Positions 34,735-64,000 of a DNA stretch of 64,000 nucleotides are shown one piece after another. Location: positions 248,001-312,000 of the forward strand of contig NZ_CP013747.1 in the NCBI RefSeq assembly GCF_001484605.1, given 5' to 3'. A program made the position numbers and the translations under genes. Each line of letters starts with the position of its first letter. The first letter of the stretch is position 1. The notes beneath the pieces were generated by a model. That model was not told where the DNA came from. It ran no database searches and saw only the letters and a program-made list of their open reading frames with translations. The stretch comes from Pseudarthrobacter sulfonivorans (GTDB lineage Bacteria; Actinomycetota; Actinomycetes; Actinomycetales; Micrococcaceae).

Positions 34735-34812
34735 ATTTTAGGAGACCGTAGAGGGGCATGGAGGCCACCGGCACGTCCAGGACTGGCCCACGCCGAGCGG
34801 TCGAATGGTCAG
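34735..34812 (-). pseudogene. 5' remnant of an MBL-fold lactonase-like gene
   Basis: Minus-strand codons read SLTIRPLGVGQ and, after an indel, VLDVPVASM, matching the start of the intact gene at 54512-55264 (MSLTIRPLGVGQVLDVPLASM). The start codon is lost and the frame is broken. It directly follows a GntR gene exactly as the intact copy does, so this is the stub of a duplicated gntR-lactonase pair. The rest of 34609-34735 holds no gene. Confidence 0.75.
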
Positions 34813-35615
34813 GCTGTTGCACGCCTCTCGCGCCAGGTGCCGGCAGTGGTTTGTTCCCGCCCCGCAGTTTTCTTGGGGGTCTGGGCCAGATCCTCCCCGA
34901 GCACTGTGCGGAGCGCCGTTCGGGTGAGAACGGTGTCGTAGGTGGGTTCCAACTGTGCCGCGACATAGAACGCAGACCGCGCCAAGTGGCTTGCCAGCAG
35001 GCGTCCTGCCGCCACACCGTCACGCGTATGAGCAGCTGCGAGAATGTCGCGATGTTCGCCGTGGGCTTTTGCAAAGGCGTGTTCGTCACCCTGAATCAAC
35101 AGTCGCCGGACTCGTTCTGCCCGGTCGGCGTCGACCTCCATCCGCGCCTTTGCGCCCTCCTGTACGCGTGACAATAGAAGCTGGTGGAAGCGGCGGTGCG
35201 GGTCGTTGAATCCGTCACGGTCACCCCGCTCGATCGCGGCACCCATCTGTGTCATGGTGGTGTCCAGATCCTGCAACTCGCGGTCGGTCAGCAAAGGCAC
35301 AGTGATGCGTATGGCGGTAGATTCCATCGACACCCGATATGCGTAGGTGCAGTCCAGGTCATCAAGGTCCAAGGCCGCGATCGTGATGCCCTTGTTAAGT
35401 TCGGACTTCACCAGGCCTTCTTGTTGCAGCATCCGGAGGGCCTCACGCAACGGTGTGCGGCCCGCGCCAGTGAGCCGGGAAAGCTCGGCTTGGGAGATCC
35501 GCCGTCCCGGCTCAAGTGTGCCTTCCAGGATCATGCTCCGCAGGTCCGCATGGACCGTCCCGACATCCGTACCGGGGCGGAGCGGAGCATCAACAACTCC
35601 GACAGTGGTGGTCAT
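34809..35615 (-). CDS. GntR-family regulator (FadR/FCD type), paralogue 2
   Basis: About 268 residues. Winged helix at residues 20-85 (HADLRSMILEGTLEPGRRIS, QAELSRLTGAGRTPLREALR, MLQQEGLV), then an all-helical FCD domain with metal-site histidines (HRRFHQLL, HGEHRDILAA, ASHLARSAFYV). Strongly similar to the GntR at 55261-56061 along its whole length. ATG at 35615 follows GAGGAGTCGA. Its expected partner gene is only a stub (34735-34812). The shared ATTGGATCC motif at 35641 lies 26 bp upstream. It may cross-regulate the main catabolic operon. Confidence 0.9.
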   Translation of the reverse strand: MTTTVGVVDAPLRPGTDVGTVHADLRSMILEGTLEPGRRISQAELSRLTGAGRTPLREALRMLQQEGLVKSELNKGITIAALDLDDLDCTYAYRVSMESTAIRITVPLLTDRELQDLDTTMTQMGAAIERGDRDGFNDPHRRFHQLLLSRVQEGAKARMEVDADRAERVRRLLIQGDEHAFAKAHGEHRDILAAAHTRDGVAAGRLLASHLARSAFYVAAQLEPTYDTVLTRTALRTVLGEDLAQTPKKTAGREQTTAGTWRERRATA

Positions 35616-35640
35616 TCGACTCCTCAAGGCCTGTAAGCGG

Positions 35641-35652
35641 ATTGGATCCTTC
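35641..35652. promoter_or_regulatory. ATTGGATCC motif upstream of gntR paralogue 2
   Basis: ATTGGATCCTTC, a partial palindrome sharing ATTGGATC with 56105 (ATTGGATCCACT) and ATTGGAT with 56224 (ATTGGATACAAT), each followed within a few bases by TTCT. Candidate GntR/FCD operator half-site. Confidence 0.45.
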
Positions 35653-35785
35653 TAGAAGGTAACAACACGCCCGTTCACAGCCATTCTAGATGCATCGCGG
35701 GACCCTCGCTAAGGGGCGGATATGACGTGCCGGAGAAGAGGGACGCTTTTTGAAGCCTTCGGATGTCTCAAAGGGGTACCTAGCG

Positions 35786-36526
35786 CTATACGCGCTCACC
35801 CAGGCTGGAGTCTTTCATAACCTTGAAACCTTCCTGCATCAAGGAGGTATCGACGCAATTGGACACCCAACTGAAGCCTCGGTCAAGCAGCCTGCGGGCG
35901 CGAATGGGCGTGCCGCCGAAGGCTCCCGGAATCAGATCAGCTGCCGAACAAGCGTCAATGACGCGGCTCAGGGGAGACTTCGGGGCAGCGTCGGCCAGTA
36001 AGGTATCCACATCCGTTCCCAAACTAAGCGCCAGGTCATAGGGGCCCACAAAGAGCATGTCAATCCCTGTGGTTGCAGCTATGTCCTCCAGGTTTTCCAG
36101 CCCCGTGGCCGTTTCGATCATGACAGCCAGTAGTGGCCCTCTCTTCGGGTACCCGCCTGCCGTGTTGTAGCTAACGCCCGTCATGGGCCCGAAGCTCCTG
36201 CTCCCGCGCGGCGGGTGGAAGGAAGCGCGCACCACATTGGCAGCCTGCAGGGCCGATTCGACCATGGGTACGATCACTCCATCAGCCCCGCTGTCCAATG
36301 CCCGGCCGATACCTGCCCCGTCGTCGGAAAGCAGACGTACAAGCATCGGCACCTTTGCCGATTGCCTTAGAGCCAATGTTTCGCGGACAGATCTGTCATC
36401 AAAGTGGCCGTGTTGGGCATCAAGGCAGACCCAATCTGCCCCAGACTCCTCCAGGGCAACGGCAGCGCGGGGCTCTCCGAGGTTGGCCCAGGCGCCAATT
36501 TTTACGGTGTGCCGTTCGTCGGACAT
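35786..36526 (-). CDS. HpcH/HpaI-family aldolase/citrate lyase-like protein
   Basis: 246 residues, the usual length for class II pyruvate aldolases of the HpaI type. Visible motifs: GADWVCLDAQHGHFDDRS with the catalytic His, VRLLSDDGAGIGRALDSGAD with the substrate Arg, VPMVESALQAANVV and LAVMIETATGLENL with a metal-binding Glu, and DMLFVGPYDLALSLG. ATG at 36526 follows AGGAGCCTGCA. It is the last gene of the long minus-strand array (106-bp gap to the gene before). It would cleave a hydroxy-oxo acid to pyruvate or similar plus an aldehyde, or a hydroxyacyl-CoA. Confidence 0.88.
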   Translation of the reverse strand: MSDERHTVKIGAWANLGEPRAAVALEESGADWVCLDAQHGHFDDRSVRETLALRQSAKVPMLVRLLSDDGAGIGRALDSGADGVIVPMVESALQAANVVRASFHPPRGSRSFGPMTGVSYNTAGGYPKRGPLLAVMIETATGLENLEDIAATTGIDMLFVGPYDLALSLGTDVDTLLADAAPKSPLSRVIDACSAADLIPGAFGGTPIRARRLLDRGFSWVSNCVDTSLMQEGFKVMKDSSLGERV

Positions 36527-36632: not shown

Positions 36633-37685
36633 CTATCGGCGCGCGGACTCTTGTGATTCTGTGATCGGAACTTCGATGTCATGACCCTGTGACTGCAGAT
36701 ACACCACGTGGCTGGCTGTCTCGGAAACGGCAAGGCGCAACGAGAAGGCCTGTAGGGATTCCCAGCCGCGGGACCATGTCAGGTGGCGGGCAATGTCCCA
36801 CACAGTTTCCGGACGGTGCTTGTCCAGGACACGCAGAACTTCTGCGGAACGTTCCCGGTTGTGTTCGATTAGCTGCGCCACCCGCCGCTGCATACCTATA
36901 AACCGGTATTCATGCGCAGGGCATACCTCCATAGCATCCTCGAAGGCGATGCGCTCCAGCGATTCGTAATAGTCCGCCAACGGATTTGCCGGCCCAGGGA
37001 GCTCCAGGGCGATGTGCGGAGAGATGCGCGGCAGAATGTGGTCCCCACTAAATATCAGGCCGTGCGGCTCGTCGATCAGGCAGATGTGTCCTGGTGAGTG
37101 ACCAGGGGTCGTGAATACTCGCAGGTCCATGCCTTTAACGGGCACCAGGCTATTGTCTGTGAGCCGGAAGTCCGGATCGGCAAGGTTCTGCAGATGGGTG
37201 AGGGTGTGGAGGTCTAAGGCCACTTCGGTCAATTTGTCCGCCGGAACGCCCCACAACGCCAACTCCTCGCGATGGGTCCGCAGGACCAGGTCCAGATCCT
37301 CGGAGGCGGTGAGTTTGCGCACTTCATGCTCGCCCAAGGCAACCCAGGCTCCCGCTATCGCTCGCAGACGGGAAGCCATTCCCAGATGGTCCGAGTGGAA
37401 ATGGGTGACCACAATGCCCGTCAGGTCTGTGAGCCCGAGACCGGCTAGGCGCATGCCTGCGGTCAATTTGTCCAGACCCGCCTCGCTGTCCCAGCCCGGA
37501 TCGATCAGAACGGCATCGCCGTCCCCCACAAGCAGATAGCTGAGGGTGTAGCGCATAGGATTATTCGGGAACGGAACAGGGATGGACCACACGTCCGCAC
37601 CGAGCTGCTCTACAGGCGGCAGCACCTTGTTCTGCCAGGCTTCTTTTTGCGCGTGGCCGGTGACGGTTATCGTCGGTAAGTTCAT
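36633..37685 (-). CDS. MBL-fold metallohydrolase with C-terminal helical extension
   Basis: 350 residues. Metal-binding THFHSDHLGMASR, then TTPGHSPGHICLIDEPHG and FSGDHILPRISPHIAL. The C-terminal third (VCPAHEYRFIGMQRRVAQLI onwards) is helical and resembles the LACTB2/RNase Z-like class that hydrolyses thioesters, esters or glyoxalase II-type substrates. ATG at 37685 follows GAAAGGAGGAACCC. It lies 41 bp after the cytochrome b gene. An acyl-CoA or acyl-thioester hydrolase role would fit the operon. Confidence 0.85.
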   Translation of the reverse strand: MNLPTITVTGHAQKEAWQNKVLPPVEQLGADVWSIPVPFPNNPMRYTLSYLLVGDGDAVLIDPGWDSEAGLDKLTAGMRLAGLGLTDLTGIVVTHFHSDHLGMASRLRAIAGAWVALGEHEVRKLTASEDLDLVLRTHREELALWGVPADKLTEVALDLHTLTHLQNLADPDFRLTDNSLVPVKGMDLRVFTTPGHSPGHICLIDEPHGLIFSGDHILPRISPHIALELPGPANPLADYYESLERIAFEDAMEVCPAHEYRFIGMQRRVAQLIEHNRERSAEVLRVLDKHRPETVWDIARHLTWSRGWESLQAFSLRLAVSETASHVVYLQSQGHDIEVPITESQESARR

Positions 37686-37726: not shown

Positions 37727-38662
37727 CTACTTGCTGACTTTGCCCGTGAGCGAGGCGAGGGGCCGAAGGAATAGCGGCCTGGCCAAGAACCAGGCGGCGA
37801 CCATAACGGCCAGTGAGGCGGCGAAGATCCAAAACCCGGTCCAGCCAGCGCCATCGTTGCTGGCATACATGTGGTTTAGGTTGCGTAGGATGCCTGTGGT
37901 CAACACCAGAGCAACGTGGACGACGATGAAGAAAACGAAGTAGAGCATCACCGGGAAGTGGACCGCGCGCGCCAGTTCGATCGGATAGGCCTTGTTGAGG
38001 TTCGCTGCGTTCTTGGGCCACGCCCCCGACATCCGCAAGCCAGTGATCAGAGCGAGCGGCGAGGCGATGAAGACCGTAGTGAAGTAGGCCAGCACCTGCA
38101 GGCTGTTGTAGTTAACCCAGCCGTTCTCCGTGGGCCAGTTCATTGAGGCATACTGCAGGGCGGTTGATAGGGCATTAGGGAAAACTTCCCAGCTCGTGGG
38201 CACGATACGTACCCAGTGTCCGGTGACGCCCAGCAGGATCACGAAAATCATCCCGTTGAGGACCCAAAGGACATCCAGGGTGAGATGGAACCAGAGATTC
38301 AGGCTGATCTTGGCGGGTTTGCCCTGGGTCCTAATCAGGCCGCTGTTGTTCCGGGTCCAATGCTCCTTTGGCCTCGCCGTTGTTCGCACGAACCAGCCTG
38401 AACGGATGATCAGCAAGATGAAGAAGGCATTGAGGAAGTGCTGCCACCCCAGCCATGCTGGCAGACCGACAGAAGCCGTGGCTGGCAGCTCGACGTGCCC
38501 GGGGTAAGTGGTCAGGAAATCCTGCACGGCCGGGAGTGTCCGCATCCATTGGGCGAATAGCACAACCACACCCAGACATCCCACCGCTACGAGGATCGCC
38601 ACGGCAAGCTTTGCCCACTTCTTCCTGGGCTTGGTTGCTGTGTTGTTGGTATTCGTCGACAT
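37727..38662 (-). CDS. Membrane cytochrome b (b561/hydrogenase-b type) encoded next to ETF
   Basis: 311 residues with about five or six membrane spans. Histidines sit within or at the edge of spans as in di-heme b cytochromes: GWQHFLNAFFILLII, LWFHLTLDVLWVLNG, LLGVTGHWVRIV, ARAVHFPVMLYFV and FIVVHVALVLTTG. No Fe-S or flavin motif is present. The location, 104 bp after etfA in the same transcript, suggests it passes electrons from the operon's acyl-CoA dehydrogenase/ETF to quinone, or serves another operon oxidoreductase. That electron route is an inference; the usual ETF partner is a Fe-S flavoprotein. Confidence 0.75.
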   Translation of the reverse strand: MSTNTNNTATKPRKKWAKLAVAILVAVGCLGVVVLFAQWMRTLPAVQDFLTTYPGHVELPATASVGLPAWLGWQHFLNAFFILLIIRSGWFVRTTARPKEHWTRNNSGLIRTQGKPAKISLNLWFHLTLDVLWVLNGMIFVILLGVTGHWVRIVPTSWEVFPNALSTALQYASMNWPTENGWVNYNSLQVLAYFTTVFIASPLALITGLRMSGAWPKNAANLNKAYPIELARAVHFPVMLYFVFFIVVHVALVLTTGILRNLNHMYASNDGAGWTGFWIFAASLAVMVAAWFLARPLFLRPLASLTGKVSK

Positions 38663-38766: not shown

Positions 38767-39741
38767 CTAGTTGGAGCGTGTTCCTATGGCCGCGATCAGC
38801 TGGGGAACGACTGTGAATACGTCGCCAACAATGCCGAAGTCCGCGACGTCAAAGATCGGTGCGTCTTCGTCTTTGTTGATTGCCACGATGGTCTTAGCTG
38901 TCTGCATTCCAGCCCGGTGCTGGATGGCTCCCGAGATCCCGAGTGCGACGTACAGTTGCGGTGAAACGGTGATGCCGGTCTGGCCAACCTGCGAGCCTTG
39001 CTCGATATAGCCGGCATCGACGGCAGCCCGGGACGCACCGACAGCTCCTCCCAGCGCATCAGCCAGCTGCTCCACAAGCACAAAGTTCTCCTTGGAGCCC
39101 AGGCCTCGTCCGCCGGAGACCACCGTGACTGCGCCTCGCAGCCCAGGCCTGCCGGAATCAGGACCTGCAGCATGAACTCTTTCAATCTTGGCGGAGGTGC
39201 GGCTTTCGACGTCGAGGGACACGGTTGTGACAGAAGGGGTAGCTTCCACCGCCCGCTCGTCCAGGGCACCCTGACGCAGAGTGATAACCGCTATAGCGGA
39301 GCTCACGGTCGCTTCGACGGTGTAGGCGCCGCCAAAAACCGAGTGCACACCGATGATTGCACCTCCGTCGTCAGTTTTGACGTCCACTACGTCAGCCAGC
39401 AGCCCGCTGCGCGTTCTGGCAGCAAACATGCCAGCCGCCGCGCGGCTTTCGATCGAGTTCGCGACAACGACAGCTGACGGTTCCAACGCCTGGGTCGCGG
39501 ATATTAGAGCTCCGAGTTGAGGGCCCACGAGCAGGCTTCCAACCTGCGTGCTCTCAGCGATGTAAACCTGTTGGGCGCCCAACATCCCGAGCTGTTCGAC
39601 AAGGCTGTCACCGGCACCTGGTTGAGTTGCTACAACAGCAACGGGGGTGCCGAGCTTGGCGGCCGCTGCAATAAGTGCCGGGGCGGTGTTAGCGATGACC
39701 CCTGTGGATGAGGTTTCGATTAGTGCCAGTACGTTTGTCAT
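38767..39741 (-). CDS. etfA: Electron transfer flavoprotein alpha subunit
   Basis: About 324 residues, normal length. The C-terminal FAD domain is clear: [60 protein letters not shown] and [20 protein letters not shown]. The ATG at 39741 follows AGGAG by 7 nt; an ATG two codons earlier directly abuts that site and is less likely. 15 bp after etfB. Heterodimer with EtfB that accepts electrons from acyl-CoA dehydrogenases; the obvious donor is the dehydrogenase at 57267-58427. Confidence 0.95.
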
Positions 39742-39756
39742 GTCCATCTCCTGGGA

Positions 39757-40527
39757 TCAGAGCAGGTTGCGGTCAGCGAGGAACTCGGCGAGCTCTTGAG
39801 CGGCGGTTCCGTCGTCGACGATCTTCTTGCCGGCAGTGCGTGCCGGACGCTGCGAAGTGGTGAGCACAGGTGTAGTGGTCGTTGCTGCGGAGTCCAGATC
39901 AATATCGGCCAATGACAGCGTCTCAACATGCTTGCGCTTGGCTGAGATGATGCCCTTGAAGTTGGGGAAACGGGCCTCGGCGGCCCATTCGGTCACCGAC
40001 ATCAACGCCGGCAATTCGGCGCTAACGGTCAGGCTTCCAATGTCCAAAGCCGCCTCGCCACGAACGGAAACCTCCGTGATTTCGACGCTGTTCAAAGAGG
40101 GCAGCAGCGGCAGCCCGAGGTGTTCAGCCACCATGGCTGGTACGACACCGCCCCGTCCGTCAGTGGATTCATTTCCGGCGATGATGAGGTCGAAGCCGGT
40201 GCGTTTCGCCGCTGCCGCAAGGACCGCGGCCGTTAAAGCCATATCCGCCCCCTCCAAGCGTTCATCCACTACGTGCACAGCGGAGTCTGCGCCCATCGAC
40301 AGGGCTTTACGGAGGGCTTCCTTCGCGGGGAGCGGCCCCATGGTCAGCACCACGACCTCGCTGCCCTTGTTGCCGTCCTTGTGGCGCAAGGCCACTTCAA
40401 GCGCACGCTCGGTGATTTCATCCGCTATCCGATCGCCGGCTTCGCGGTCCAGCAGGCCGGTCGAGGTATCAAGCTTGCGCTCTTCCTCTGTATCGGGCAC
40501 CTGCTTTATCAGAACAATGATTTTCAT
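39757..40527 (-). CDS. etfB: Electron transfer flavoprotein beta subunit
   Basis: 256 residues. N-terminus MKIIVLIKQVPDTEEERKLD is diagnostic; also ALEVALRHKDGNKGSEVVVL, SMGADSAVHVVDE and IIAGNESTDGRGGVVPAMVA, the AMP-binding segments. ATG follows AGGAGGAGAGATCC. First of etfB-etfA-cytochrome b. ETF genes inside an accessory catabolic operon indicate a dedicated acceptor for the local acyl-CoA dehydrogenase in addition to any housekeeping ETF. Confidence 0.95.
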   Translation of the reverse strand: MKIIVLIKQVPDTEEERKLDTSTGLLDREAGDRIADEITERALEVALRHKDGNKGSEVVVLTMGPLPAKEALRKALSMGADSAVHVVDERLEGADMALTAAVLAAAAKRTGFDLIIAGNESTDGRGGVVPAMVAEHLGLPLLPSLNSVEITEVSVRGEAALDIGSLTVSAELPALMSVTEWAAEARFPNFKGIISAKRKHVETLSLADIDLDSAATTTTPVLTTSQRPARTAGKKIVDDGTAAQELAEFLADRNLL

Positions 40528-40612: not shown

Positions 40613-42148
40613 CTAGACGCGGGTCGGCGTATCGCTTCCAGCCACTTCCGCCAGGACCTTGTTTACTCTTCGTTTACCGAGACGCCTCACTACCGGTCCT
40701 GCGATAAGGACGAGAATCACCGCCAGCACTAGCGTCAAGGAGATCGGCCGGGTCAAGAACACAGCTGCGTCGCCACCGGAGATGGCCAGCGAGTTCCGCA
40801 GGTTGATCTCGAGAATGCTGCCCAAGACGGCAGCCAGCACAAGCGGGCCGGGGCTGAAGTCGAGACGTCGCAGGCCGTAGCCCACAATCCCTGCCACAAC
40901 GCATGTCACAACATCGAACATGCTGTTGTTTAGCGAGTACACACCGATCAGGGTCACCACGACGGTGATGGCGGCGATGATGCCCGCACGGACCCGCAGC
41001 AGTCGGACGAAGAATCCGAGCAGCGGTAGATTGAGGGCCAACAGCATGAGGTTTCCGATCAGCATCGAAGCCATCACGCCCCAGAAGATGTCCGGATGAT
41101 CCGCAACGAGGGTAGGCCCGGGCGTAACTCCCTGGAGTAACAGGGCACCGTACAGGAGAGCCATCACGGTTCCGGTAGGCAGGCCAAGCGTAAGCAGGGG
41201 CAAAAAACTCATCGTCGAACCCGCATTGTTGGCCGTTTCCGGCCCCGCCACTCCCTCGATCGCGCCCTTGCCGAAGCGTTCCGGGGTCTTGGAAATCCGC
41301 TTTTCGGCTGCGTACGACGCCATGGAAGAGAGGACACTTCCGCCACCGGGCAAAAGCCCGATCACAGAGCCGATAAGCGTGCCGCGTGCGATCGGCCCCG
41401 CCGACTGCCGGAAGTCGGATTTCGTCGGCCATACGCCGTGGACCTTCGCTGCCACGGGCGTCTGGGATTCATTGTGCTTAAGGTTGGCAAGCACCTCACC
41501 GATCCCGAAGAGACCCATTGCAACGGCGACGATGTCCAAGCCGCTCAGCGCTTCCAGGGAACCGAACGTGAACCTTGCCGTGCCGGTGACGGGATCTTGA
41601 CCGACGCTTGCGACCAGTAGACCGGCCGCGACCATCACGCCAGACTTGGCCAGCGACTGACCGCCCATTGCGAGGACCAAAAGTATGCCGACAACGGCCA
41701 CCATGAACAGTTCCGGTGCCCCGAAGCGTTCTGCGACCCGCGCCAAAGGCTGGGCCAGAAGAACCAGGACAAAGGTCGCCACAATGCCGCCCACGAAGGA
41801 GCCGATCGCAGCGATTCCCAGCGCCGGCCCCGAACGCCCCTGCTTGGCCATGGGGTGCCCATCAAAGGTGGTCACTACGGATGCGATCTCGCCTGGAACC
41901 TTCACTAACACCGAGGTGATGGTCCCTCCGTACATTGCACCGTAATAGATACCGGCCAGGAGGATAATCGCACTCGGCGCTTCGAGGGCGAACGTGATTG
42001 GCAGCAAGATCGCAATCGTCGTGGTCGGCCCGAGACCGGGCAGTACGCCGATTACCATCCCCAGGAACACGCCGAGCAGAACGAGCAGCAAATTCAGCGG
42101 GGTTGCCGCGACCGCGAAACCTTCAGCGAAAGATTCGATCATGTCCAT
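40613..42148 (-). CDS. tctA: TTT transporter large permease subunit, TctA family
   Basis: 511 residues, around a dozen spans. Signature motifs GVLPGLGPTTTIAILLPITF and YGGTITSVLVKVPGEIASVV followed by TTFDGHPMAKQGRSGPALG. Only 3 bp after the tctB stop. This third TTT system is embedded in the main catabolic array and so probably imports its carboxylate substrate. Confidence 0.92.
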   Translation of the reverse strand: MDMIESFAEGFAVAATPLNLLLVLLGVFLGMVIGVLPGLGPTTTIAILLPITFALEAPSAIILLAGIYYGAMYGGTITSVLVKVPGEIASVVTTFDGHPMAKQGRSGPALGIAAIGSFVGGIVATFVLVLLAQPLARVAERFGAPELFMVAVVGILLVLAMGGQSLAKSGVMVAAGLLVASVGQDPVTGTARFTFGSLEALSGLDIVAVAMGLFGIGEVLANLKHNESQTPVAAKVHGVWPTKSDFRQSAGPIARGTLIGSVIGLLPGGGSVLSSMASYAAEKRISKTPERFGKGAIEGVAGPETANNAGSTMSFLPLLTLGLPTGTVMALLYGALLLQGVTPGPTLVADHPDIFWGVMASMLIGNLMLLALNLPLLGFFVRLLRVRAGIIAAITVVVTLIGVYSLNNSMFDVVTCVVAGIVGYGLRRLDFSPGPLVLAAVLGSILEINLRNSLAISGGDAAVFLTRPISLTLVLAVILVLIAGPVVRRLGKRRVNKVLAEVAGSDTPTRV

Positions 42149-56160: not shown

Positions 56161-56223
56161 TTCCGGCAGATTTCAGCGGCAAGCAGAGTAGGCCGGTGGA
56201 AATCTCGATGCAACCTATTGCGG

Positions 56224-56235: not shown

Positions 56236-56289
56236 TCTGGAAAAGTAGGCGTGACGACAACCACATCCGGCGTCCTACGGAGAAAACAC

Positions 56290-57270
56290 ATGATTTCAAC
56301 CCCCACAGATGACGGCTGCTACCTGGTTACTGGGGCCTTGGGCTGCATCGGAGCTTGGATGACACGGCTGCTGCTGCAATCTGGAGCCAGGGTCGTGGCG
56401 CTCGACGCGGGAACCGACGACCACCGGCTCAAAGCGGCGCTGCTCGACACCTCCGAGGCTCGGCTTGAGCGAGTTGTTGGCGATGTGACCGATCTTGCTC
56501 AGATTACCGAGATCATTACCGAGCACCAGGTGGACGCAATCATCCACCTTGCTGCGCTGCAAGTCCCGTCGTGCCAGGCCAATCCGGTCCTCGGTGCACA
56601 GGTCAACGTCGTTGGCCAGATGGTCATGTTGGAAGCGGCCCGATCCCTTAGCTCCGGCCGTCCTCTGGTGTATGCGAGCTCGGTCGGCGCGTACGCTCCT
56701 TCCGGTGGAAAGCAGGGCCTTGCGGACCCGCCGGCGACTTTCTACGGCGTCTATAAACGCGCCGGGGAGCAAGCGGCTGCGCTGTATGCGAAAAGCTTCG
56801 GCGTGGCCTCAATCGGGATCCGGCCGCACACGGTCTACGGGCCTGGTCGTGACTTCGGGGTTTCGGCTCAGCCGACGTTTGCCGTCCTGGCAGCTGCCGA
56901 AGGACGCCCCTACCACATGCCTTACGGCGGCGACGTGCAGCTCCAGTTCGTCGAGGACGTCGCGCAATCGTTCGTCAACGCGTCCCGCAGCGACTACGAC
57001 GGGTCCTGCGTCGTCGATCTGGTCGGACACTCGGTGACGATGAGCGATGTGGTCGACGCCATCACCGCGGCCGTGCCCCAATCCCAGGGAACGATCACCT
57101 TCGACGACGTCCAACTCCCCTTCCCCACCGGACTCGGAACCGGCGAATCCCCGTTCCCCCGGGCGGCTGACCGCAGCATCGCGGATGGCATGCGTGCCAC
57201 CGTCGCCCATGCCCAAAGACTTCACCGCGAGGCCCTGACCGGGTCTGGCCCGTTGAAAGGATCATCATGA
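56290..57270 (+). CDS. NAD(P)-dependent epimerase/dehydratase (extended SDR)
   Basis: 326 residues. Cofactor loop YLVTGALGCIGAWMTRLL, catalytic serine in VYASSVGAYAPSGG, and FYGVYKRAGEQAA with the Tyr-x3-Lys pair. RPHTVYGPGRDFG is typical of extended SDRs. ATG at 56290 follows GGAGAAAACAC. First gene of the rightward operon; its TGA overlaps the acyl-CoA dehydrogenase ATG. Reduction or epimerisation of a hydroxy intermediate is the likely role. Confidence 0.9.
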   Translation: MISTPTDDGCYLVTGALGCIGAWMTRLLLQSGARVVALDAGTDDHRLKAALLDTSEARLERVVGDVTDLAQITEIITEHQVDAIIHLAALQVPSCQANPVLGAQVNVVGQMVMLEAARSLSSGRPLVYASSVGAYAPSGGKQGLADPPATFYGVYKRAGEQAAALYAKSFGVASIGIRPHTVYGPGRDFGVSAQPTFAVLAAAEGRPYHMPYGGDVQLQFVEDVAQSFVNASRSDYDGSCVVDLVGHSVTMSDVVDAITAAVPQSQGTITFDDVQLPFPTGLGTGESPFPRAADRSIADGMRATVAHAQRLHREALTGSGPLKGSS

Positions 57271-58427
57271 GTTCATACCTGACCGAGGACCAGCAGCATA
57301 TCCAGTCCTCCGTGGCGGACCTGTGCGCCAAATTCCCGGAGTCCTACTGGCAACAGATCGACGAATCCCGGGAGTACCCCGAAAAGTTTGTCTCGGCTCT
57401 CACGGACGCCGGCTGGCTGTCCATCCTCATCCCTGAGGAGTACGGCGGGGGCGGGGGCACGATAAGCGATGCCGCGGTCGTCCTGGAAACGATCAACCGC
57501 TCCGGCGGATCCAGCGTCGCAGCACACGCACAGCTCTACACCATGGGCACCGTCCTGCACCACGGCAATGAGGAACAGAAGCAGCGCTTCTTTCCCGGTA
57601 TTGCATCCGGCGACATCCGGTTTCAGGCCTTTGGCGTGACCGAAGCCGACGCCGGCACCGACACGACCCGCATCCGCACCACTGCGGTGCGCGACGGCGA
57701 CCACTACGTTGTCAACGGCGGGAAGATCTTTACTTCCCGGTTTGCGCATTCCGACGTGATGCTCCTCCTGGTTCGCACCACCCCTTACGATCAGGTGACC
57801 CGAAAGTCCGACGGGCTCAGCTGCCTGCTGGTGGATCTGCGCGATTGCCGCGACGAGATTGAAGCCCGTCCCATCCGAACTATGCTCGGCCACGACCCCT
57901 ATCAGATCTTCTTCGACAACCTCCGCGTTCCAGTGGAGAACCTCGTGGGCGAAGAGGGCAAGGGTTTCTCCTACATCCTCTCCGGCATGAACGCCGAGCG
58001 TATCCTCCTGACATCGGAGTTCCTCGGCGACGGCTTCTGGTTCACCGAAAAAGCTTCAACCTACGCCAACAGCCGCGAAGTGTTTGGCCGTCCGATCGGC
58101 AAGAACCAGGGCGTCCAGTTCCCCATTGCTCAGGCGTACGCGCAGCTCGAAGCCGCCAGCCTCATGCGCTGGAAGGCCGCAGAACTTTTCGCTGACGGCA
58201 AGCCCTGCGGCTTTGAAGCGAACGCTGCGAAACTCCTCAGTTCGCAGGCCCTCTGGGCCGCCGCCAACGCTTGCATGGACACCTACGGAGGGTATGGCCT
58301 GACCGTCGAGTACGGCATCGAGCGAAAGTTCCGTGAGGCCCGCGCGCCCCTGGTGGCTCCAGTGAACAACAACCTCGTACTTGCCTTCATAGCCCAGAAC
58401 ACCTTGGGCATGCCCAAATCCTACTAA
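57267..58427 (+). CDS. Acyl-CoA dehydrogenase
   Basis: 386 residues, normal length. FAD/substrate segments FQAFGVTEADAGTDTTRIRT, VNGGKIFTSRFAHSDVMLLL, and CMDTYGGYGLTVEYGIERKF near the end. The usual C-terminal YEGT catalytic glutamate is absent (APVNNNLVLAFIA instead). A glutamate at position 244 in GMNAERILLTSEFLG aligns with the isovaleryl-CoA dehydrogenase base (LERLVLAGG), suggesting a branched-chain-type active site. It should reduce the ETF encoded at 38767-40527. Confidence 0.92.
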   Translation: MSSYLTEDQQHIQSSVADLCAKFPESYWQQIDESREYPEKFVSALTDAGWLSILIPEEYGGGGGTISDAAVVLETINRSGGSSVAAHAQLYTMGTVLHHGNEEQKQRFFPGIASGDIRFQAFGVTEADAGTDTTRIRTTAVRDGDHYVVNGGKIFTSRFAHSDVMLLLVRTTPYDQVTRKSDGLSCLLVDLRDCRDEIEARPIRTMLGHDPYQIFFDNLRVPVENLVGEEGKGFSYILSGMNAERILLTSEFLGDGFWFTEKASTYANSREVFGRPIGKNQGVQFPIAQAYAQLEAASLMRWKAAELFADGKPCGFEANAAKLLSSQALWAAANACMDTYGGYGLTVEYGIERKFREARAPLVAPVNNNLVLAFIAQNTLGMPKSY

Positions 58428-58468: not shown

Positions 58469-59362
58469 ATGCAGATTGTTTCGTTTCGCCCCAACGGTTC
58501 GACAGAGCCGCTTCGTGCCGGCTTCAGCGACAATGGCTCCGTCATTGCCAGCTCCGACCTCGGCTACCCCGACACCGTGCGGGAACTGCTCACCCACCAC
58601 TCACACGAGCTCACCACTGTGCTGGACAAAGCACGCGCAGCGCTGGCCACCGGAGAATCCGCCACTGACCTAGCCGCAGTACACCTGGGCCCGCCCGTGC
58701 CCGACCCGGACAAGATCCTTTGCATGGGCCTGAACTACCTCGAACACATCGAGGAAGCCTCGGCCGCCGTCACCGAATTCCCCCCAGTATTCGCGAAATT
58801 CCGCAACTCACTGATCGGCGCCGCCGACACCATCCTCATGCCCGGCATCAGCACCGACATCGACTACGAAGCAGAACTCGCCATCGTCATCGGCACCCGC
58901 TGCAAAAACGTCACCGTCGAAGACGCCCTGGACCACGTCGCAGGATACGCGGTCTTCAACGACGTCAGCGCCCGCGACATCCAGTTCCGCAGCCACCAAT
59001 GGACCTCCGGGAAAATGCTCGACACCTTCGGACCCATGGGCCCCGGCATCACCCCCAAAGAAGAAATCAGCGACGTCCAGGCCCTCCGCATCCAGGCCAG
59101 AGTCAACGGCGTCACCGTCCAGGACAGCAACACCTCCAAAATGATCTGGCCCGTAGCCGAAACCATCTCCTACCTCAGCGCCATCATCACCCTCGAACCA
59201 GGCGACATCATCGCCACCGGCACACCAGCCGGCGTAGGCCTCGCCCAAGACCCACCCCTATGGCTCAAAGCCAACGACATCGTCGAAATCGAAATCGAAG
59301 GCCTCGGACTACTCCACAACAACGTCAAAGCACCCCAAATCTCAGGCGCGGCAACGTCGTGA
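58469..59362 (+). CDS. Fumarylacetoacetate hydrolase-family protein
   Basis: 297 residues. Core motifs LCMGLNYLEHIEEASAAV, DYEAELAIVIGTRCKNVTVE with the metal-binding Glu pair, GYAVFNDVSARDIQFRSHQW with the metal Asp, TSGKMLDTFGPMGPGI and TGTPAGVG. Family members hydrolyse C-C bonds of diketo acids, decarboxylate oxo-diacids or hydrate dienoates. From about 58700 to 59340 nearly every codon ends in C, distinctly more than neighbours, which leaves long open frames in shadow. Its TGA overlaps the next start (GTGA). Confidence 0.9.
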   Translation: MQIVSFRPNGSTEPLRAGFSDNGSVIASSDLGYPDTVRELLTHHSHELTTVLDKARAALATGESATDLAAVHLGPPVPDPDKILCMGLNYLEHIEEASAAVTEFPPVFAKFRNSLIGAADTILMPGISTDIDYEAELAIVIGTRCKNVTVEDALDHVAGYAVFNDVSARDIQFRSHQWTSGKMLDTFGPMGPGITPKEEISDVQALRIQARVNGVTVQDSNTSKMIWPVAETISYLSAIITLEPGDIIATGTPAGVGLAQDPPLWLKANDIVEIEIEGLGLLHNNVKAPQISGAATS

Positions 59363-61497
59363 CGAGCACGTTAAAGGCGCGACTCACGGCTCGCGAGACG
59401 CTGGAGGTCCTTTTCAATCCCCGCTCGGTCGCCATTATCGGCGCGTCCACGAATCCGGCAAAGCTTAGCGGGCGGCCCCTCTCCAACCTGCAGCGGTCCC
59501 AGTACTCCGGCGAGGTCTTTGTGGTCAACCCACGGGTGGAGCACATCAACGGCGTGCGGTCCTATCCGGGAATCGACAAGATACCGTCCCCCGTGGACGT
59601 GGCGTTTATCGTGGTCCCCGCGGAACAAGCTGTCGACGCAGCCTTGGCCGCGGCCCACGCCGGCGCGAAGGCAGCGATCATTGGAGTCAGCGGATTTGCT
59701 GAGTCAGGTGACGACCGTGGTCGAGATCTCCAGTCCCGGCTCACCCGTATCGCAGCAGAAACCGGAATGCGCATCGTAGGGCCTAACACCAATGGCATTT
59801 ACAACGCTGTCGCCGGTCTGTCCCTCGGCTACAACAGCGCCCATGGCGAAGACATCCCTGCTGGATCGATCAGTATCGTGTCCCACAGTGGCGCGATGCT
59901 GAGCGTCTTCGCAAACCGCCTTAAAGCCGCCGGTGTAGGCCTTTCAAAATTCGTCGCAGTCGGCAACGAGAGTGACCTGGACATGCTGGATTACTTCGAC
60001 TACCTGGTCGACGACTCAGCAACCGAGACGATCGCGCTGCTCATGGAGTCCATCGCGGACGGGCGCCGCTTCAAGGAAATAGCTGCCCGTGCTTCGCTTA
60101 AGCACAAGCGCATTGCTGTACTCAAGCTGGGTCAGTCCGCCGAGGGCGCTCAGGCGACCGCCGCGCACTCAAGCCGACTCGCCGGCAGCGCACGTTCGTA
60201 CGAGGCACTCTTCGCCCAGCTTGGCATCGCCTCCGTCACGACACCCGAAGCCTTGATCGCCTCAGCAGCCTTGGCCTCACAGACAAGTCCCCAACCCGGG
60301 TCCGGAACCGGACTTGGGATAATCACCTACTCCGGTGCCGCCAGCTCGATAGCAGCAGACTCTGCGTCCAATGCCGGACTTCCACTGGTCGCCTTCGGTG
60401 CGGAGACTATGTCTGTCCTCGATTCCGTCCCACGGTCAGCGCCAATCACAAATCCCCTAGACATTGGCGGCGTTGGGGGCGTCGAGCATTCCGAGCAGGT
60501 ATTTTCCGCAATCAGTGGTGATCAGGACGTCCGCCTCGTTCTTGTCTACGCCCACGTCCTGCAGACGACCCAGCAGCGACGCGCAGTCTTTGAAGCCCTG
60601 GAGACATCCCGTTCCAACAGTGCTAAACCACACGTCGTCCTAGCCCCCGGTGGCCTCACCGATGACGAGATCCGTTGGCTCGCTGAGGCCGACGTCCCGT
60701 ATTACACGGACACCGCAGTATGCTTCGCGGCCTTGGCGTCATATTGGCGCTGGGTGGACACCCGGGATCTCGGCAATGGCCAGTTCACGGCCCCAGCCGA
60801 AAATGCTGTCCTGACCAGCCTCCTCGAGGCGGTGAGCGGCGTGACGCTCAGCGAGCATGACAGCCTCAACGTGCTGGATGCCGCGTCGCTACCAACTGTG
60901 GAGCGTAGCTACTGTGCACGGCTTGAGGACGTCGGGTCCGCTGCGGAGGCGATGGGCTATCCCGTGGTACTCAAAGCCATCGTCGAAGGTATTGCGCATA
61001 AATCTGATCTGGGTTTGGTCGAGGTCGGAATCAATTCCGCTGAAGAGCTTGCCGCCGCTGCCGGACGGCTCAGAGAAAATCCTGCTGCATCCAGTGCTGT
61101 GGGCTACCTGGTCGAACGGATGATGGCTTCCGATCTGGAAGTCATCGCCGGTGTCACCAATGAGCCGGGGCTGGGTCAGTTCCTGGTCTTCGGTCTCGGC
61201 GGGATCCTGGCCGAGGCCATGGACTCCATCAGCCTTGTCCCCCTTCCCGCGTCACGCCAGCAGATCGGCGCCGTGCTCTCACAAAGTCGATTGGGCATCC
61301 TGCTCGCCAGCGAGCGGTGGCGCCATCGTGAGACAGCGGAGCAACTGCTCGATGCGCTGACGAACCTCGCCGACCTTGCGGAGGCTGCCGGAGACCGCAT
61401 CGCGGCAATTGACGTCAACCCTCTGTCGATCTCATCCGCAGGCGTCACTGCCGTCGACGCACTCGTTATCCTCGCCGGTCAGCTCGACGCATCATGA
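59359..61497 (+). CDS. NDP-forming acyl-CoA synthetase (fused alpha/beta)
   Basis: 712 residues from GTG at 59359 (VTSTLKARLTARETLEVLF), overlapping the FAH stop by 4 bp. The N-terminal CoA-binding fold is SVAIIGASTNPAKLSGRPLS; the succinyl-CoA-ligase-like part has VSHSGAMLSVFANRLKAAGV, KFVAVGNESDLDMLDYFDYL and PITNPLDIGGVGGVEH. The C-terminal ATP-grasp is GYPVVLKAIVEGIAHKSDLG to AAIDVNPLSI. It converts an acyl-CoA plus ADP and phosphate to acid plus ATP, or the reverse. An apparent longer frame from 58720 is the shadow of the FAH gene. Confidence 0.92.
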   Translation: MTSTLKARLTARETLEVLFNPRSVAIIGASTNPAKLSGRPLSNLQRSQYSGEVFVVNPRVEHINGVRSYPGIDKIPSPVDVAFIVVPAEQAVDAALAAAHAGAKAAIIGVSGFAESGDDRGRDLQSRLTRIAAETGMRIVGPNTNGIYNAVAGLSLGYNSAHGEDIPAGSISIVSHSGAMLSVFANRLKAAGVGLSKFVAVGNESDLDMLDYFDYLVDDSATETIALLMESIADGRRFKEIAARASLKHKRIAVLKLGQSAEGAQATAAHSSRLAGSARSYEALFAQLGIASVTTPEALIASAALASQTSPQPGSGTGLGIITYSGAASSIAADSASNAGLPLVAFGAETMSVLDSVPRSAPITNPLDIGGVGGVEHSEQVFSAISGDQDVRLVLVYAHVLQTTQQRRAVFEALETSRSNSAKPHVVLAPGGLTDDEIRWLAEADVPYYTDTAVCFAALASYWRWVDTRDLGNGQFTAPAENAVLTSLLEAVSGVTLSEHDSLNVLDAASLPTVERSYCARLEDVGSAAEAMGYPVVLKAIVEGIAHKSDLGLVEVGINSAEELAAAAGRLRENPAASSAVGYLVERMMASDLEVIAGVTNEPGLGQFLVFGLGGILAEAMDSISLVPLPASRQQIGAVLSQSRLGILLASERWRHRETAEQLLDALTNLADLAEAAGDRIAAIDVNPLSISSAGVTAVDALVILAGQLDAS

Positions 61498-62405
61498 CCT
61501 CGACGCTCGCCTCAGGTCAGGGATCCTTCGATTTAGACGGCGCTATTGACCTGCACATCCACACCGCACCCTGCTTGTTCCCCAGGCTTGGCGACGACGT
61601 CGAGACGGTGCAGCGCTGCGCAGACGCGGGTTTGCGCGCCGTCGCAATCAAGAGTCATCACGAGAGCACCGTGTCACGGGCCCGGCTCGCGGGCAAAGCG
61701 GTTCCTGGCATCGACGTCATTGGCGGGATCACCCTCAACTGGACCGTGGGCGGCGTCAATCCCTACGCGGTCGAGGCTGCCTTGCTGACTGGAGGCCGGA
61801 TCGTATGGGGGCCAAGCGGCCATGCGGCGTATCACGGGGAAATCATGGGCGGTTTGGGATCGTGGGGAATCCCGGGCATGAACATGCCTGGGAAGGTGAA
61901 TCAAGGCGTGGAGGTGGTCGACGAGAACGGACGGCTGACCACTCAGTCACAGGCAGTGCTGGACCTGGTGGGTGAGCATGATGCTCTTTTCGCCACCTCA
62001 CATATCAGCCCCGACGAGATCCTCGCTGTCCTTGACTACGCGAGGCCCCGCGGCATTCGGGTGCTTGTAAACCACGTCTTCTACCTGCCCCGGGTCGATG
62101 AGGAGTTCCTGGCCAAGGTTGTGACAGGAGGCGGGGCCATCGAGCTGATCAGTGCGTTGATGCTGGTGCCGTCCCTGCAGAGCGACCTGGACTATACGTA
62201 CGCGCGGCTAGTGGCAACCATCAGGCGATTCGGCGCGGAAAACTTCGTTCTGGCCTCGGACGGCGGGGGCGTCTCCATGGCGCTGTGGCCGGATGAGCAA
62301 CTGCGGATGTTCGCGCGCCTGCTCCTCAATGCCGGCCTCACCGAGGCCGAACTCGACCAGACGCTTCGCACCAATCCTGCCCGGCTCATCGGGCTGTCCA
62401 CCTAA
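61494..62405 (+). CDS. DUF6282-type metal-dependent hydrolase-like protein
   Basis: 303 residues, collinear with the protein at 10063-10977. Candidate metal residues: DLHIHTAPC, KSHHEST, FATSHISPDE, VLVNHVFYLPRVDEEF and LASDGGGVSMAL. ATG overlaps the synthetase stop (ATGA). Here it belongs to a CoA-ester operon, whereas the paralogue sits beside an alcohol dehydrogenase, so its chemistry is probably common to both pathways, such as hydrolysis of a lactone, amide or ester. Confidence 0.82.
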   Translation: MTSTLASGQGSFDLDGAIDLHIHTAPCLFPRLGDDVETVQRCADAGLRAVAIKSHHESTVSRARLAGKAVPGIDVIGGITLNWTVGGVNPYAVEAALLTGGRIVWGPSGHAAYHGEIMGGLGSWGIPGMNMPGKVNQGVEVVDENGRLTTQSQAVLDLVGEHDALFATSHISPDEILAVLDYARPRGIRVLVNHVFYLPRVDEEFLAKVVTGGGAIELISALMLVPSLQSDLDYTYARLVATIRRFGAENFVLASDGGGVSMALWPDEQLRMFARLLLNAGLTEAELDQTLRTNPARLIGLST

Positions 62406-62425
62406 CACCCCCACACGGAGGCATC

Positions 62426-63178
62426 ATGAATACCATTGATCTGAATAACAAGGTCGCCATTGTCACTGGTGGCGCACAGGGCATCGGCCGGGCCATCGCT
62501 GAACGCCTGCTTCGATCCGGCGCGGAGGTCCACATTTGGGACGTCGACACCGCCGCTCTTTCCACGTCGGCCCAGGAACTGGGGTTGTTGGGCAAGGTGG
62601 TGGCGCATGAGGTCGACCAAACCGATTTCGCCGCCGTGGCAACAGCGGCCAAAGCGGTTGAGCAGTCTCACGGAAAAATTGACATCCTCGTTAACAACGC
62701 GGGCATCGCCGGGCCAGCCAAGCCTCTGCTTGAGTACAGCCCGCAGGAGTGGGGTGCGGTCATTGACGTCGATCTGAACGGAGCGTTCAACTGCTGCCAT
62801 GCCGTCGTGCCGGTCATGGTGAAGAACAACTACGGGCGCGTGCTGAATGTTGCTTCCGTCGCGGGCAAGGAAGGCAATCCCAACGCCGCGGCCTATTCGG
62901 CCGCCAAGGCTGGAGTCATTGCCATGACGAAGTCGCTGGCCAAAGAACTGGCTCACCACGAAATTGCCGTCAACTGCATCACCCCTACTGCAGTTGCGAC
63001 AAAGATCTTCGATCAAGTGACCGTGGAGCACATCGGGTACATTCTCGAACGCATACCCCGGGGCCGCTTTCTGAAGGCCGAGGAGCTTGCGGCCATGGTG
63101 GCCTGGCTGGTCAGTGCCGAGAACTCCTTCACGACGGGAGCAGCGTTTGACCTGTCCGGGGGGCGGGCCACTTACTGA
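62426..63178 (+). CDS. SDR dehydrogenase, FabG-like
   Basis: 250 residues. Cofactor loop VTGGAQGIGRAIAERLL, DVDTAAL after strand 2 (an acidic residue favouring NAD), NNAGIAGPAKPLL, catalytic serine in VLNVASVAGKEGN, YSAAKAGVIAMTKSLAKEL and the C-terminal FDLSGGRATY. ATG 20 bp after the DUF6282 stop with ribosome site ACGGAGG. Likely oxidises a 3-hydroxyacyl intermediate. Confidence 0.92.
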   Translation: MNTIDLNNKVAIVTGGAQGIGRAIAERLLRSGAEVHIWDVDTAALSTSAQELGLLGKVVAHEVDQTDFAAVATAAKAVEQSHGKIDILVNNAGIAGPAKPLLEYSPQEWGAVIDVDLNGAFNCCHAVVPVMVKNNYGRVLNVASVAGKEGNPNAAAYSAAKAGVIAMTKSLAKELAHHEIAVNCITPTAVATKIFDQVTVEHIGYILERIPRGRFLKAEELAAMVAWLVSAENSFTTGAAFDLSGGRATY

Positions 63179-63286
63179 GCCGCCAGTAGTTCGGCTAGCC
63201 CGGATCCCTAGGTCGTGAGGATCCTCTGACGGACTGAGTAATCCACAGACCAAGGACTTCAGGAAACCCACCTAAGAGGAGAAAAC

Positions 63287-64000
63287 ATGGGTACGAACCC
63301 AACGCTTTTGACACCAATGACGATTCGCGGGGTGACTCTGCGCAACCGCATCGTTCTCTCTCCGATGCTTACTTACGCGGCAGAGGCCGGCTACGTCAAT
63401 GACTGGCACCTGGTGCATCTCGGCAAGTTTGCTCTCGGCGGGTGCGGTTTGGTGTTCATGGAATCTACCAAGGTCGATCCTGGTGGTCTCACGACGCCGA
63501 GGGACTGCGGCATATGGAAGGACGATTTCATTCCTGGGCTGCAGCGGATCACGCGGTTCCTGAAGCAGCACGGGGCCGTGGCAGGGATCCAGCTCGGGCA
63601 CTCAGGCAGGAAGGCTCGGAACTCAGTGCCGTGGCAGGGGCGGTCACAACTGCCGAGTCCGTTTCCTGACGTGGAAGACGGAACCGACTGGGAGCTGGTC
63701 GCACCCAGCCCGTTGCCAGCCGGGCCTGGCCTGGAGGTTCCGCGCGAACTGACCATCGCGGAGATCCACGAGATGATCTCTGGTTGGGGGGCGGCCGCCC
63801 GGCGTGCCCATGAGGCCGGTTTCGATGTCCTGGAAGTCCACGGAGCCCACGGATATTTGATCCACCAATTCCTCTCCCCCACAGCCAACCAGCGCACAGA
63901 CGCCTATGGCGGAAGCCTGGAGAACAGAATGCGGTTCGCCATTGAGGTAGTGACGGAGGTGCGCCGGCACTGGCCCGAGGATAAGCCCCTGTTCTTCCGT
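63287..64000 (+). CDS. NADH:flavin oxidoreductase, Old Yellow Enzyme family (3' end cut by window edge)
   Basis: The first 238 codons are open to the window end. MTIRGVTLRNRIVLSPMLTY with the FMN-phosphate side, FMESTKVDPGGLTTPRDCGI, VAGIQLGHSGRKA, and FDVLEVHGAHGYLIHQFLSP followed by NQRTDAYGGSLENRMRFAIE, all diagnostic. ATG at 63287 follows AGAGGAGAAAAC. It would reduce a conjugated C=C, or act like 2,4-dienoyl-CoA reductase if a Fe-S domain follows beyond the window. 108 bp after the SDR, probably the same operon. Confidence 0.92.
   Translation, partial: MGTNPTLLTPMTIRGVTLRNRIVLSPMLTYAAEAGYVNDWHLVHLGKFALGGCGLVFMESTKVDPGGLTTPRDCGIWKDDFIPGLQRITRFLKQHGAVAGIQLGHSGRKARNSVPWQGRSQLPSPFPDVEDGTDWELVAPSPLPAGPGLEVPRELTIAEIHEMISGWGAAARRAHEAGFDVLEVHGAHGYLIHQFLSPTANQRTDAYGGSLENRMRFAIEVVTEVRRHWPEDKPLFFR

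Follow-up and report, generated by a model that had tools for sequence, protein, structure and literature searches.

A divergent catabolic gene cluster of Pseudarthrobacter sulfonivorans with a core that may degrade 2-substituted succinates

The closest described systems to the locus reported here are the itaconate/methylsuccinate gene clusters of Pseudomonas and Cupriavidus. As described in PMC12290011 and PMC9875883, such a cluster encodes Ict, Ich, Ccl, a methylsuccinyl-C4-CoA dehydrogenase and a methylsuccinate isomerase. In PMC12290011, the isomerase and the dehydrogenase are shown biochemically, and a survey places 96.2% of methylsuccinate isomerases in Pseudomonadota. Here we analysed a divergent locus of Pseudarthrobacter sulfonivorans that lies in a 64-kb stretch of DNA, hereafter the window (bases 248001-312000 of a contig of 5.04 Mb, the genome totalling 5.06 Mb; coordinates that continue the window numbering beyond 64000 are window-equivalents). 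We propose, with about even confidence, that the genes of this locus form a catabolic cluster under common regulation, with a core that would degrade a 2-substituted succinate, R-CH(COOH)-CH2-COOH. What we observe is the gene content, gene sets that recur in other genomes, conserved catalytic residues and duplicated control regions; the reactions, the nature of R and the regulation are inferred. This agrees with the initial annotation of the window, made from its letters, which had taken the locus for a catabolic one that may act on a branched or multi-carboxylated acid and knew of no described pathway with the full gene set; our literature search likewise found no description of such a set.

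The five functions of the methylsuccinate cluster, namely a CaiB-type CoA-transferase, an acyl-CoA dehydrogenase (ACAD), an MmgE/PrpD protein, a hydratase and a lyase, are also clustered in the window, and CaiB, ACAD and MmgE/PrpD all lie on the two gene arms around the control region at 56062-56289 (Table 1). Unlike the published cluster, in which Ich is of the MaoC type and Ccl of the HpcH type, the core here contains a crotonase (PF00378) as hydratase and a hydroxymethylglutaryl-CoA (HMG-CoA) lyase-like (HMGL-like) protein (PF00682) as lyase. HpcH and MaoC genes stand outside the core, next to a biotin carboxylase gene in a more distant part of the right arm, and an HpaI-type aldolase gene stands at the end of the left arm. 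On top of the published set come an electron-transfer flavoprotein (ETF) and a cytochrome that belong to the locus, its two importers, its lactonase-like genes and its right arm. The shared five functions would also suit an actinobacterial methylsuccinate/itaconate pathway, in which R is methyl and cleavage yields acetyl-CoA and pyruvate; pyruvate needs no decarboxylase, in line with finding none in this genome (see below). However, we consider such a pathway very unlikely, given the excess of genes (three acid-activating enzymes, two importers, reductases and an aldolase), the benzoylformate-decarboxylase-type partners in relatives, which imply a larger R for them, and the almost exclusive occurrence of methylsuccinate isomerases in Pseudomonadota in the survey cited above.

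In the route that we propose, the substrate would be taken up by the HAAT-type ATP-binding cassette (ABC) importer, the tripartite tricarboxylate transporter (TTT) or both, and a lactone or ester form would be opened by the metallo-beta-lactamase-fold (MBL) hydrolases MBL1 or MBL2 or by the DUF6282 hydrolase. PrpD would interconvert the enantiomers at the carbon adjoining the free carboxylate, CaiB would load CoA onto the distal carboxylate, and ACAD would form the alpha,beta double bond, passing electrons through the dedicated EtfBA and perhaps to the adjoining b-type cytochrome. Hydration by the crotonase would give R-C(OH)(COOH)-CH2-CO-SCoA, which the HMGL-like lyase would cleave to acetyl-CoA and R-CO-COOH, a keto acid left to the right-arm enzymes and the aldolase.

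The HMGL-like lyase shares with HMG-CoA lyases (PDB 2cw6 and 2ftp) the TIM-barrel fold, the two metal-ligand histidines and the active-site cysteine loop GGCPY. Its predicted structure has a mean pLDDT (predicted local distance difference test) of 76.4, with an unreliable C-terminal part (residues 329-386), and finds its best fold matches among HMG-CoA lyases (template-modelling (TM) score by target 0.80-0.83), one of which is 6nds, by its title solved with CoA and 3-methylmalate; alpha-isopropylmalate synthase follows. Distinct from HMG-CoA lyases, the protein is about 85 residues longer, partly through a C-terminal stretch beyond the aligned domain, scores 163.6 bits on the NCBIfam HMG-CoA lyase model NF004283 (cut-off 246), and carries Arg-Glu in place of an Arg-Asp motif whose Asp we take to be a metal ligand. 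Arg-Glu is the pair found at the corresponding position in homocitrate synthases. Additionally, a Thr occupies the place where HMG-CoA lyases have a metal-ligand Asn. Of 80 aligned subfamily members (77 from the collected loci and three from the strain's own genome), 78 have Arg-Glu and two are gapped there, as opposed to Arg-Asp in 2ftp and 2cw6, and all 80 retain the HxH metal ligands and the GGCPY loop. The annotations of members read 'hydroxymethylglutaryl-CoA lyase' or 'citramalate synthase', among others, and the reaction of this subfamily appears to be so far undescribed. In a tree of these proteins, which the outgroup does not root cleanly and in which locus groups A and B are not monophyletic, the window protein groups with those of Saccharopolyspora and Nocardiopsaceae.

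The best solved relative of the window PrpD is iminodisuccinate epimerase (PDB 2hp0, 220 bits). The seven catalytic residues of that enzyme, numbered as in PMC12290011 and mapped with an offset of 20 for 2hp0, are all present in the alignment (H85, D88, H99, Y145, H150, K198 and K266). Among 26 PrpD sequences from the collected loci and the strain's own region, six of the seven never vary, and 21 of the sequences have Y145; in a PrpD tree, the nearest neighbours of the window protein are metagenomic. The likeness stops at the substrate, which differs; the similarity is moderate, and the epimerase role of this PrpD is putative. A place in the 2-methylcitrate (propionate) cycle was tried and rejected, with NCBIfam scores of 37.6, 32.3 and 19.7 against cut-offs of 950, 575 and 458 and iminodisuccinate epimerase as the best solved relative. 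CaiB matches PF02515 with 403 bits (cut-off 23.3). We take Asp168 of CaiB, Glu119 and Glu139 of the crotonase and Glu348 of ACAD to be the catalytic positions, judging from their families. Among relatives of at least 42% identity, the CaiB Asp is kept in 22/22, each crotonase Glu in 17/17 and the ACAD Glu in 17/18, with one gap; among all aligned homologues, the counts are 66/76, 21/23 and 25/34, respectively.

Relatives of the HMGL-like protein were collected from species genomes with six peptide patterns, MREGMQIE among them, giving 182 stretches, and loci are counted over the best 80 of the 182. We defined a core locus as one with the HMGL-like gene, ACAD at no less than 50% identity and PrpD at no less than 36%, anywhere in the fetched stretch; 14 of the 80 loci are of this kind, mostly with CaiB and crotonase too, and gene content of the locus thereby recurs in other genomes. 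The combination ACAD-PrpD-HMGL-CaiB-crotonase is found in Nocardioides, Terrabacter, Citricoccus, Streptomyces, Rhodococcus and Microbacteriaceae bins, with an aldehyde dehydrogenase preceding the crotonase in some; EtfBA with the cytochrome accompanies it in two core loci (L057 and L059), and EtfBA in that of Citricoccus (L066). The conserved core comprises ACAD, PrpD, HMGL-like, CaiB and crotonase, sometimes with EtfBA and the b-type cytochrome. It is smaller than the single 27-gene pathway that had been claimed: importers, lactonase-like genes and the right-arm carboxylase block vary between the loci examined and may be add-on cassettes. Within 6 kb of the HMGL-like gene, CaiB occurs in 56 and LivF in 25 of 77 scorable loci; in the 66 loci that fall outside the core definition, CaiB is a frequent neighbour of the lyase gene, joined in many of them by Liv-type ATPases. 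In Aeromicrobium L027, LivKHMGF, ACAD, a short-chain dehydrogenase/reductase (SDR), MBL1, CaiB, HMGL-like, an ACDs-like ligase, HpaI, PrpD, a racemase, Ldh_2, an iron-type alcohol dehydrogenase (Fe-ADH), DUF6282 and an aldehyde dehydrogenase all run in one direction. Because relatives of genes from both window arms are united there on one strand, the two arms probably belong together. The HpaI-type aldolase and MmgE/PrpD genes overlap by 4 bp in both Aeromicrobium L026 and L027, and P0340 is a natural fusion of the two (736 aa), so that aldolase and PrpD are probably linked in function. As a separate observation, many acidimicrobial and related genomes (L029-L056, e.g. L031 and L034) have a run of Liv-type ABC, CaiB and HMGL-like genes with neither ACAD nor PrpD nearby.

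A clue to the released keto acid comes from the partners of the core. A benzoylformate-decarboxylase-type thiamine pyrophosphate (TPP) enzyme occurs in 8 of the 14 core loci against 0 of the 66 others; benzoylformate decarboxylase is the best NCBIfam model for all eight, three of which exceed its 493-bit cut-off (677, 686 and 739) and five of which score 422-461. One broad aldehyde-dehydrogenase cluster, formed by single linkage at 38% identity and also taking in several genes of the strain's own region, occurs in 11 of 14 core loci against 2 of 66 others. These two partners fit the release of an alpha-keto acid, not of a beta-keto acid, and in the TPP-bearing core loci the lyase probably releases an arylglyoxylate that would then be decarboxylated and oxidised to a benzoate. 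Additionally, four core loci carry a flavin monooxygenase nearest to 3-hydroxybenzoate 6-monooxygenase (two representatives score 301 and 372, cut-off 459), three a gentisate-1,2-dioxygenase-like protein (one representative at 225, cut-off 442) and four a fumarylacetoacetate-hydrolase (FAH) family protein (the L030 representative has no NCBIfam match at 1e-55); with scores below cut-off or no match, these names are weak. We propose more tentatively, giving it a little less than even confidence, that a widespread, so far undescribed aerobic route for 2-substituted succinates, aryl-succinates included, exists in actinobacteria and beyond and ends in a new lyase activity, in which an HMGL-type enzyme with an Arg-Glu metal site would split 2-alkyl- or 2-arylmalyl-CoA into an alpha-keto acid and acetyl-CoA. 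Where relatives carry genes of the benzoylformate-decarboxylase and gentisate types, the route would lead from (hydroxyphenyl)succinate through hydroxyphenylglyoxylate and hydroxybenzaldehyde to hydroxybenzoate. A literature search at the level of paper listings found no description of aerobic substituted-succinate breakdown by such a route. If true, the proposal would give a function, linked to substituted succinates, to a large lyase subfamily, carry the proven scheme for methylsuccinate over to larger side chains and explain, in a way open to testing, why catabolic clusters of actinobacteria contain MmgE/PrpD genes.

On the other hand, the core could act on a 3-substituted glutarate of the 3-methylglutarate, 3-methylglutaconate or hydroxymethylglutarate type, which CaiB would activate, ACAD and crotonase would convert to a 3-hydroxy-3-substituted glutaryl-CoA, and the lyase would cleave to acetyl-CoA and a beta-keto acid, for example acetoacetate. 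In particular, CaiB has its best match among solved structures in succinate-hydroxymethylglutarate CoA-transferase (SUGCT, 292 bits), the lyase has its best solved relatives and folds among HMG-CoA lyases, and the right arm holds, beyond the window, a carboxyltransferase, an alpha subunit with BT domain, MaoC and CitE/HpcH, a set familiar from actinobacterial leucine breakdown. CaiB shares its family and catalytic Asp with SUGCT and with benzylsuccinate CoA-transferase alike, the latter differing in having two CaiB subunits (9fn0 A and B) as opposed to one gene here. We nevertheless consider action on a glutarate unlikely: it has no use for a free 1,4-dicarboxylate epimerase and no need for the decarboxylase-type and aldehyde-dehydrogenase partners of core loci, and the low score of the lyase on the HMG-CoA lyase model and its Glu for Asp speak against it. 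The canonical leucine/HMG route is kept as no more than a rival for the function of the core, on the lyase score and the misfit of the relatives' keto-acid decarboxylases.

The layout of the window locus largely bears out what had been described. Genes were called from open reading frames and Pfam matches, and all enzyme and importer classes named in the initial annotation were recovered, with three acid-activating enzymes (AMP-forming ligase, CaiB and ADP-forming ligase) where two had been counted. The left arm consists, as stated there, of 20 uninterrupted minus-strand genes from GntR1 (55261-56061) to the HpaI-type aldolase ending at 35786. With the chosen starts, neighbouring genes overlap at 10 of 19 junctions, eight by 1-8 bp, one fewer than the nine reported, and the others by 11 and 16 bp; the largest gap is indeed 106 bp. 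Rightward, the seven gene starts expected in the window are present from 56290 on, with 4-bp overlaps at three junctions. The right arm continues past the window for eight further same-strand genes, to window-equivalent 74457 (genome position 322457). Specifically, after the remainder of the old-yellow-enzyme gene come an Asp/Glu racemase, a zinc alcohol dehydrogenase, a biotin-dependent carboxyltransferase, its alpha subunit (BT domain of methylcrotonyl-CoA-carboxylase type), MaoC, CitE/HpcH, a second crotonase and a third MBL-fold protein. Intergenic gaps of 211, 697 and 305 bp occur in this tail, and with gaps up to 697 bp the right arm may be more than one transcript. Between 35000 and 54999, a scan that leaves the 228-bp region outside, neither promoter-like patterns (3 versus 4.4 in shuffles) nor terminator-like patterns (14 versus 16.0) are in excess, and the 64-kb window has no tRNA genes and no Rfam matches at the gathering threshold.

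The 228 bp between the divergent start codons are exact, yet this control region is not the only one. Two blocks around TTGGATCCA and TTGGATACA (TTGGATMCA type) are common to three control regions: the 228-bp region, its counterpart in a second copy of the locus and the region upstream of FAH copy 2 (341 kb). The block pairs lie at 56106/56225, 83397/83515 and 92988/93105, with spacings of 119, 118 and 117 bp, and much of the sequence between paired blocks has diverged. TTGGATNCA occurs 12 times on both strands of a 324-kb stretch, and six of the occurrences are these three pairs. Judged by eye, the window cores overlap or adjoin -10-like boxes, TATAAA at 56098-56103 (minus strand) and TACAAT at 56230-56235 (plus strand). 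Related half-sites lie upstream of two other GntR/FCD genes (genome positions 283640 and 323601), and the GntR/FCD paralogues comprise four genes, one of them broken, that are 66-80% identical. We consider it probable that GntR1 and its paralogues act at the TTGGATMCA sites to repress both arms.

The locus belongs to a larger catabolic region that has been rearranged, in which a damaged second version of the divergent core lies at 322.7-333.6 kb of the genome. It retains MBL2 (81% protein identity to the window), cytochrome (83%), EtfA (80%), EtfB (75%), CaiB (94%) and HMGL-like (95%), a 108-residue acyl-CoA ligase remnant (100%), a GntR gene and another GntR matched in two pieces; its divergent side has the epimerase gene in pieces, ACAD (94%) and an FAH remnant. 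This copy lacks the ABC importer, TTT, PrpD and MBL1, as well as any crotonase corresponding to that of the core. Additionally, the accDA-MaoC-CitE block is duplicated (genome positions 157850-162762 and 314796-319708, 98.0% identity over 4913 bp), as is the MBL2-cytochrome-EtfAB block (174988-178910 and 323755-327677, 99.87% over 3923 bp), and the FAH gene is present in three copies with 96.8-99.9% DNA identity. The gaps in the second copy, the near-identical genome copies of the two blocks (157.8-162.8 and 175.0-178.9 kb) and the different gene subsets in relatives would suit a mosaic, in which a catabolic island has gathered at least two short pathways that are independent of each other and share no one substrate, the co-directional run being due to packing. 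We consider this rather unlikely, since L027 joins many of the parts in another genus, so that many parts travel together, and the control blocks are shared. The HMGL-like protein has no match of at least 50% identity in the 36 same-genus genomes searched (best 35%), which points to gain by horizontal transfer; a plasmid search with window positions 40000-64000 gave two short, uninformative matches (159 and 45 bp).

Several points weigh against a 2-substituted succinate as substrate of the window locus. The epimerase-type Tyr, missing in cis-aconitate decarboxylase 7br9, is present in the same alignment in 7bra, a Bacillus subtilis IRG1 homologue with no assigned function; it is thus not an exclusive feature and no proof of epimerase activity. 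The closeness of CaiB to SUGCT fits a 3-substituted glutarate, and the second genomic copy keeps CaiB, HMGL-like, ACAD, ETF, cytochrome and MBL2 while lacking PrpD and the core crotonase. PrpD is paired with an aldolase in L026, L027 and P0340. As MREGMQIE was among the collection patterns, the Arg-Glu conservation is partly built in; a further HMGL-like set of 17 proteins consists of hand-picked close homologues, and the Fisher tests of core-locus partners ignore kinship between loci. The 66 of 80 loci outside the core definition, many of them on short contigs, include about a dozen, mostly from Chloroflexi and SAR202, for which no tested family appears within 6 kb, so that the lyase subfamily is not tied to the proposed route alone. 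Finally, no benzoylformate decarboxylase was found in the window's genome (the best of 12 TPP matches has 28% identity), so that the most telling hint from gene neighbours does not carry over to the window, whose keto acid must be a different one or be processed in another way. A 4-hydroxy-2-keto acid product, as a guess, could be handled by the HpaI aldolase.

Accessory genes add hints on precursor and electron acceptor. MBL1 scores 91.7 bits on the NCBIfam AiiA model, under the cut-off of 375, which assigns the fold family only. In DUF6282, D19, H21, H23, K53, H170, H194 and D256 are invariant in 22 sequences, and its model (pLDDT 93.7) is nearest to phosphotriesterase-like lactonases, with TM of about 0.56 and a high root-mean-square deviation. 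These fold-level assignments of MBL1, MBL2 and DUF6282 hint at a precursor of the lactone or ester type. In 15 of 30 fetched loci (L128-L157), the window's included, the genes for the PF01292 cytochrome and EtfA are no more than 1.5 kb apart, and the cytochrome could be a membrane partner that accepts electrons from ETF. The ferredoxin domain of ETF-ubiquinone oxidoreductase (PF05187) has no match in the window's genome, a domain that matches only 3 of 14 control genomes. Sequence searches of the cytochrome and DUF6282 against solved structures gave no match, and a literature search found nothing on a pairing of ETF with cytochrome b561.

Table 1. Features of the divergent locus and its left-hand neighbour, in window coordinates.
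Feature	Position	Strand	Basis and remarks
GntR/FCD regulator 2	34809..35627	-	Pfam; paralogue, 76% identical to GntR1; 158 bp past the left-arm end
HpcH/HpaI-type aldolase	35786..36526	-	Pfam; ATG start; alternative TTG start at 36733 would overlap next gene
MBL2, metallo-beta-lactamase-fold hydrolase	36633..37685	-	Pfam
Membrane b-type cytochrome (PF01292)	37727..38662	-	Pfam
EtfA	38767..39747	-	Pfam
EtfB	39757..40527	-	Pfam
TctA, TTT importer	40613..42148	-	Pfam
TctB	42152..42628	-	Pfam
TctC binding protein	42628..43611	-	Pfam
AMP-forming acyl-CoA ligase	43700..45226	-	Pfam
MmgE/PrpD family protein, proposed dicarboxylate epimerase	45226..46626	-	Pfam; catalytic residues
Crotonase, proposed hydratase	46611..47399	-	Pfam PF00378; both catalytic Glu
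CaiB/family III CoA-transferase	47396..48607	-	Pfam; solved-structure match; catalytic Asp
HMGL-like lyase, Arg-Glu subfamily	48604..49764	-	Pfam PF00682; alignments, predicted structure
LivF-type ABC ATPase	49761..50480	-	Pfam; 239-aa start
LivG-type ABC ATPase	50473..51255	-	Pfam
LivM-type permease	51252..52334	-	Pfam
LivH-type permease	52324..53199	-	Pfam
HAAT binding protein	53252..54472	-	Pfam
MBL1, acyl-homoserine lactone (AHL)-lactonase-like hydrolase	54512..55264	-	Pfam; AiiA model below cut-off
GntR/FCD regulator 1	55261..56061	-	Pfam
Divergent control region, 228 bp	56062..56289	.	TTGGATCCA at 56106, TTGGATACA at 56225
NAD-dependent epimerase/dehydratase (extended SDR)	56290..57270	+	
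Acyl-CoA dehydrogenase (ACAD), catalytic Glu	57267..58427	+	Pfam; alignment
Fumarylacetoacetate-hydrolase (FAH) family protein	58469..59362	+	Pfam; two near-identical copies elsewhere in region
ADP-forming acyl-CoA synthetase	59359..61497	+	
DUF6282 protein, amidohydrolase-type metal residues	61494..62405	+	Nearest solved folds phosphotriesterase-like lactonases, modest similarity
Classical SDR dehydrogenase	62426..63178	+	Pfam
Old-yellow-enzyme family reductase	63287..64000	+	Pfam; truncated by window end

Elsewhere in the genome, a third HMGL-like gene (54-55% identical) opens a locus at 365958-372230 and is followed by a FAS1_DH-type hydratase-like gene, two consecutive CaiB genes, the third FAH copy and a thiolase; the best solved relatives of the second CaiB include benzylsuccinate CoA-transferase subunits. 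An inverted pair of 1154 bp, 100% identical (129434-130587 and 431410-432563), flanks a region of about 300 kb that holds the duplicated catabolic blocks, and carries a 323-aa reading frame that looks transposase-like. In the left half of the window, further DUF6282 genes or pieces lie at 10063-10977 and 14712-15235 (one 79% identical, the other matched as two pieces); more TctA and TctC relatives are found in the same stretch. A direct repeat of 1848 bp (12881-14728 and 18361-20208, 99.7% identity) contains in each copy a 490-aa gene about 34% identical to aldehyde dehydrogenase, and at 32090-34060 a 656-aa major-facilitator transporter is fused C-terminally to carboxypeptidase-regulatory-like domains, by eye an unusual mix.

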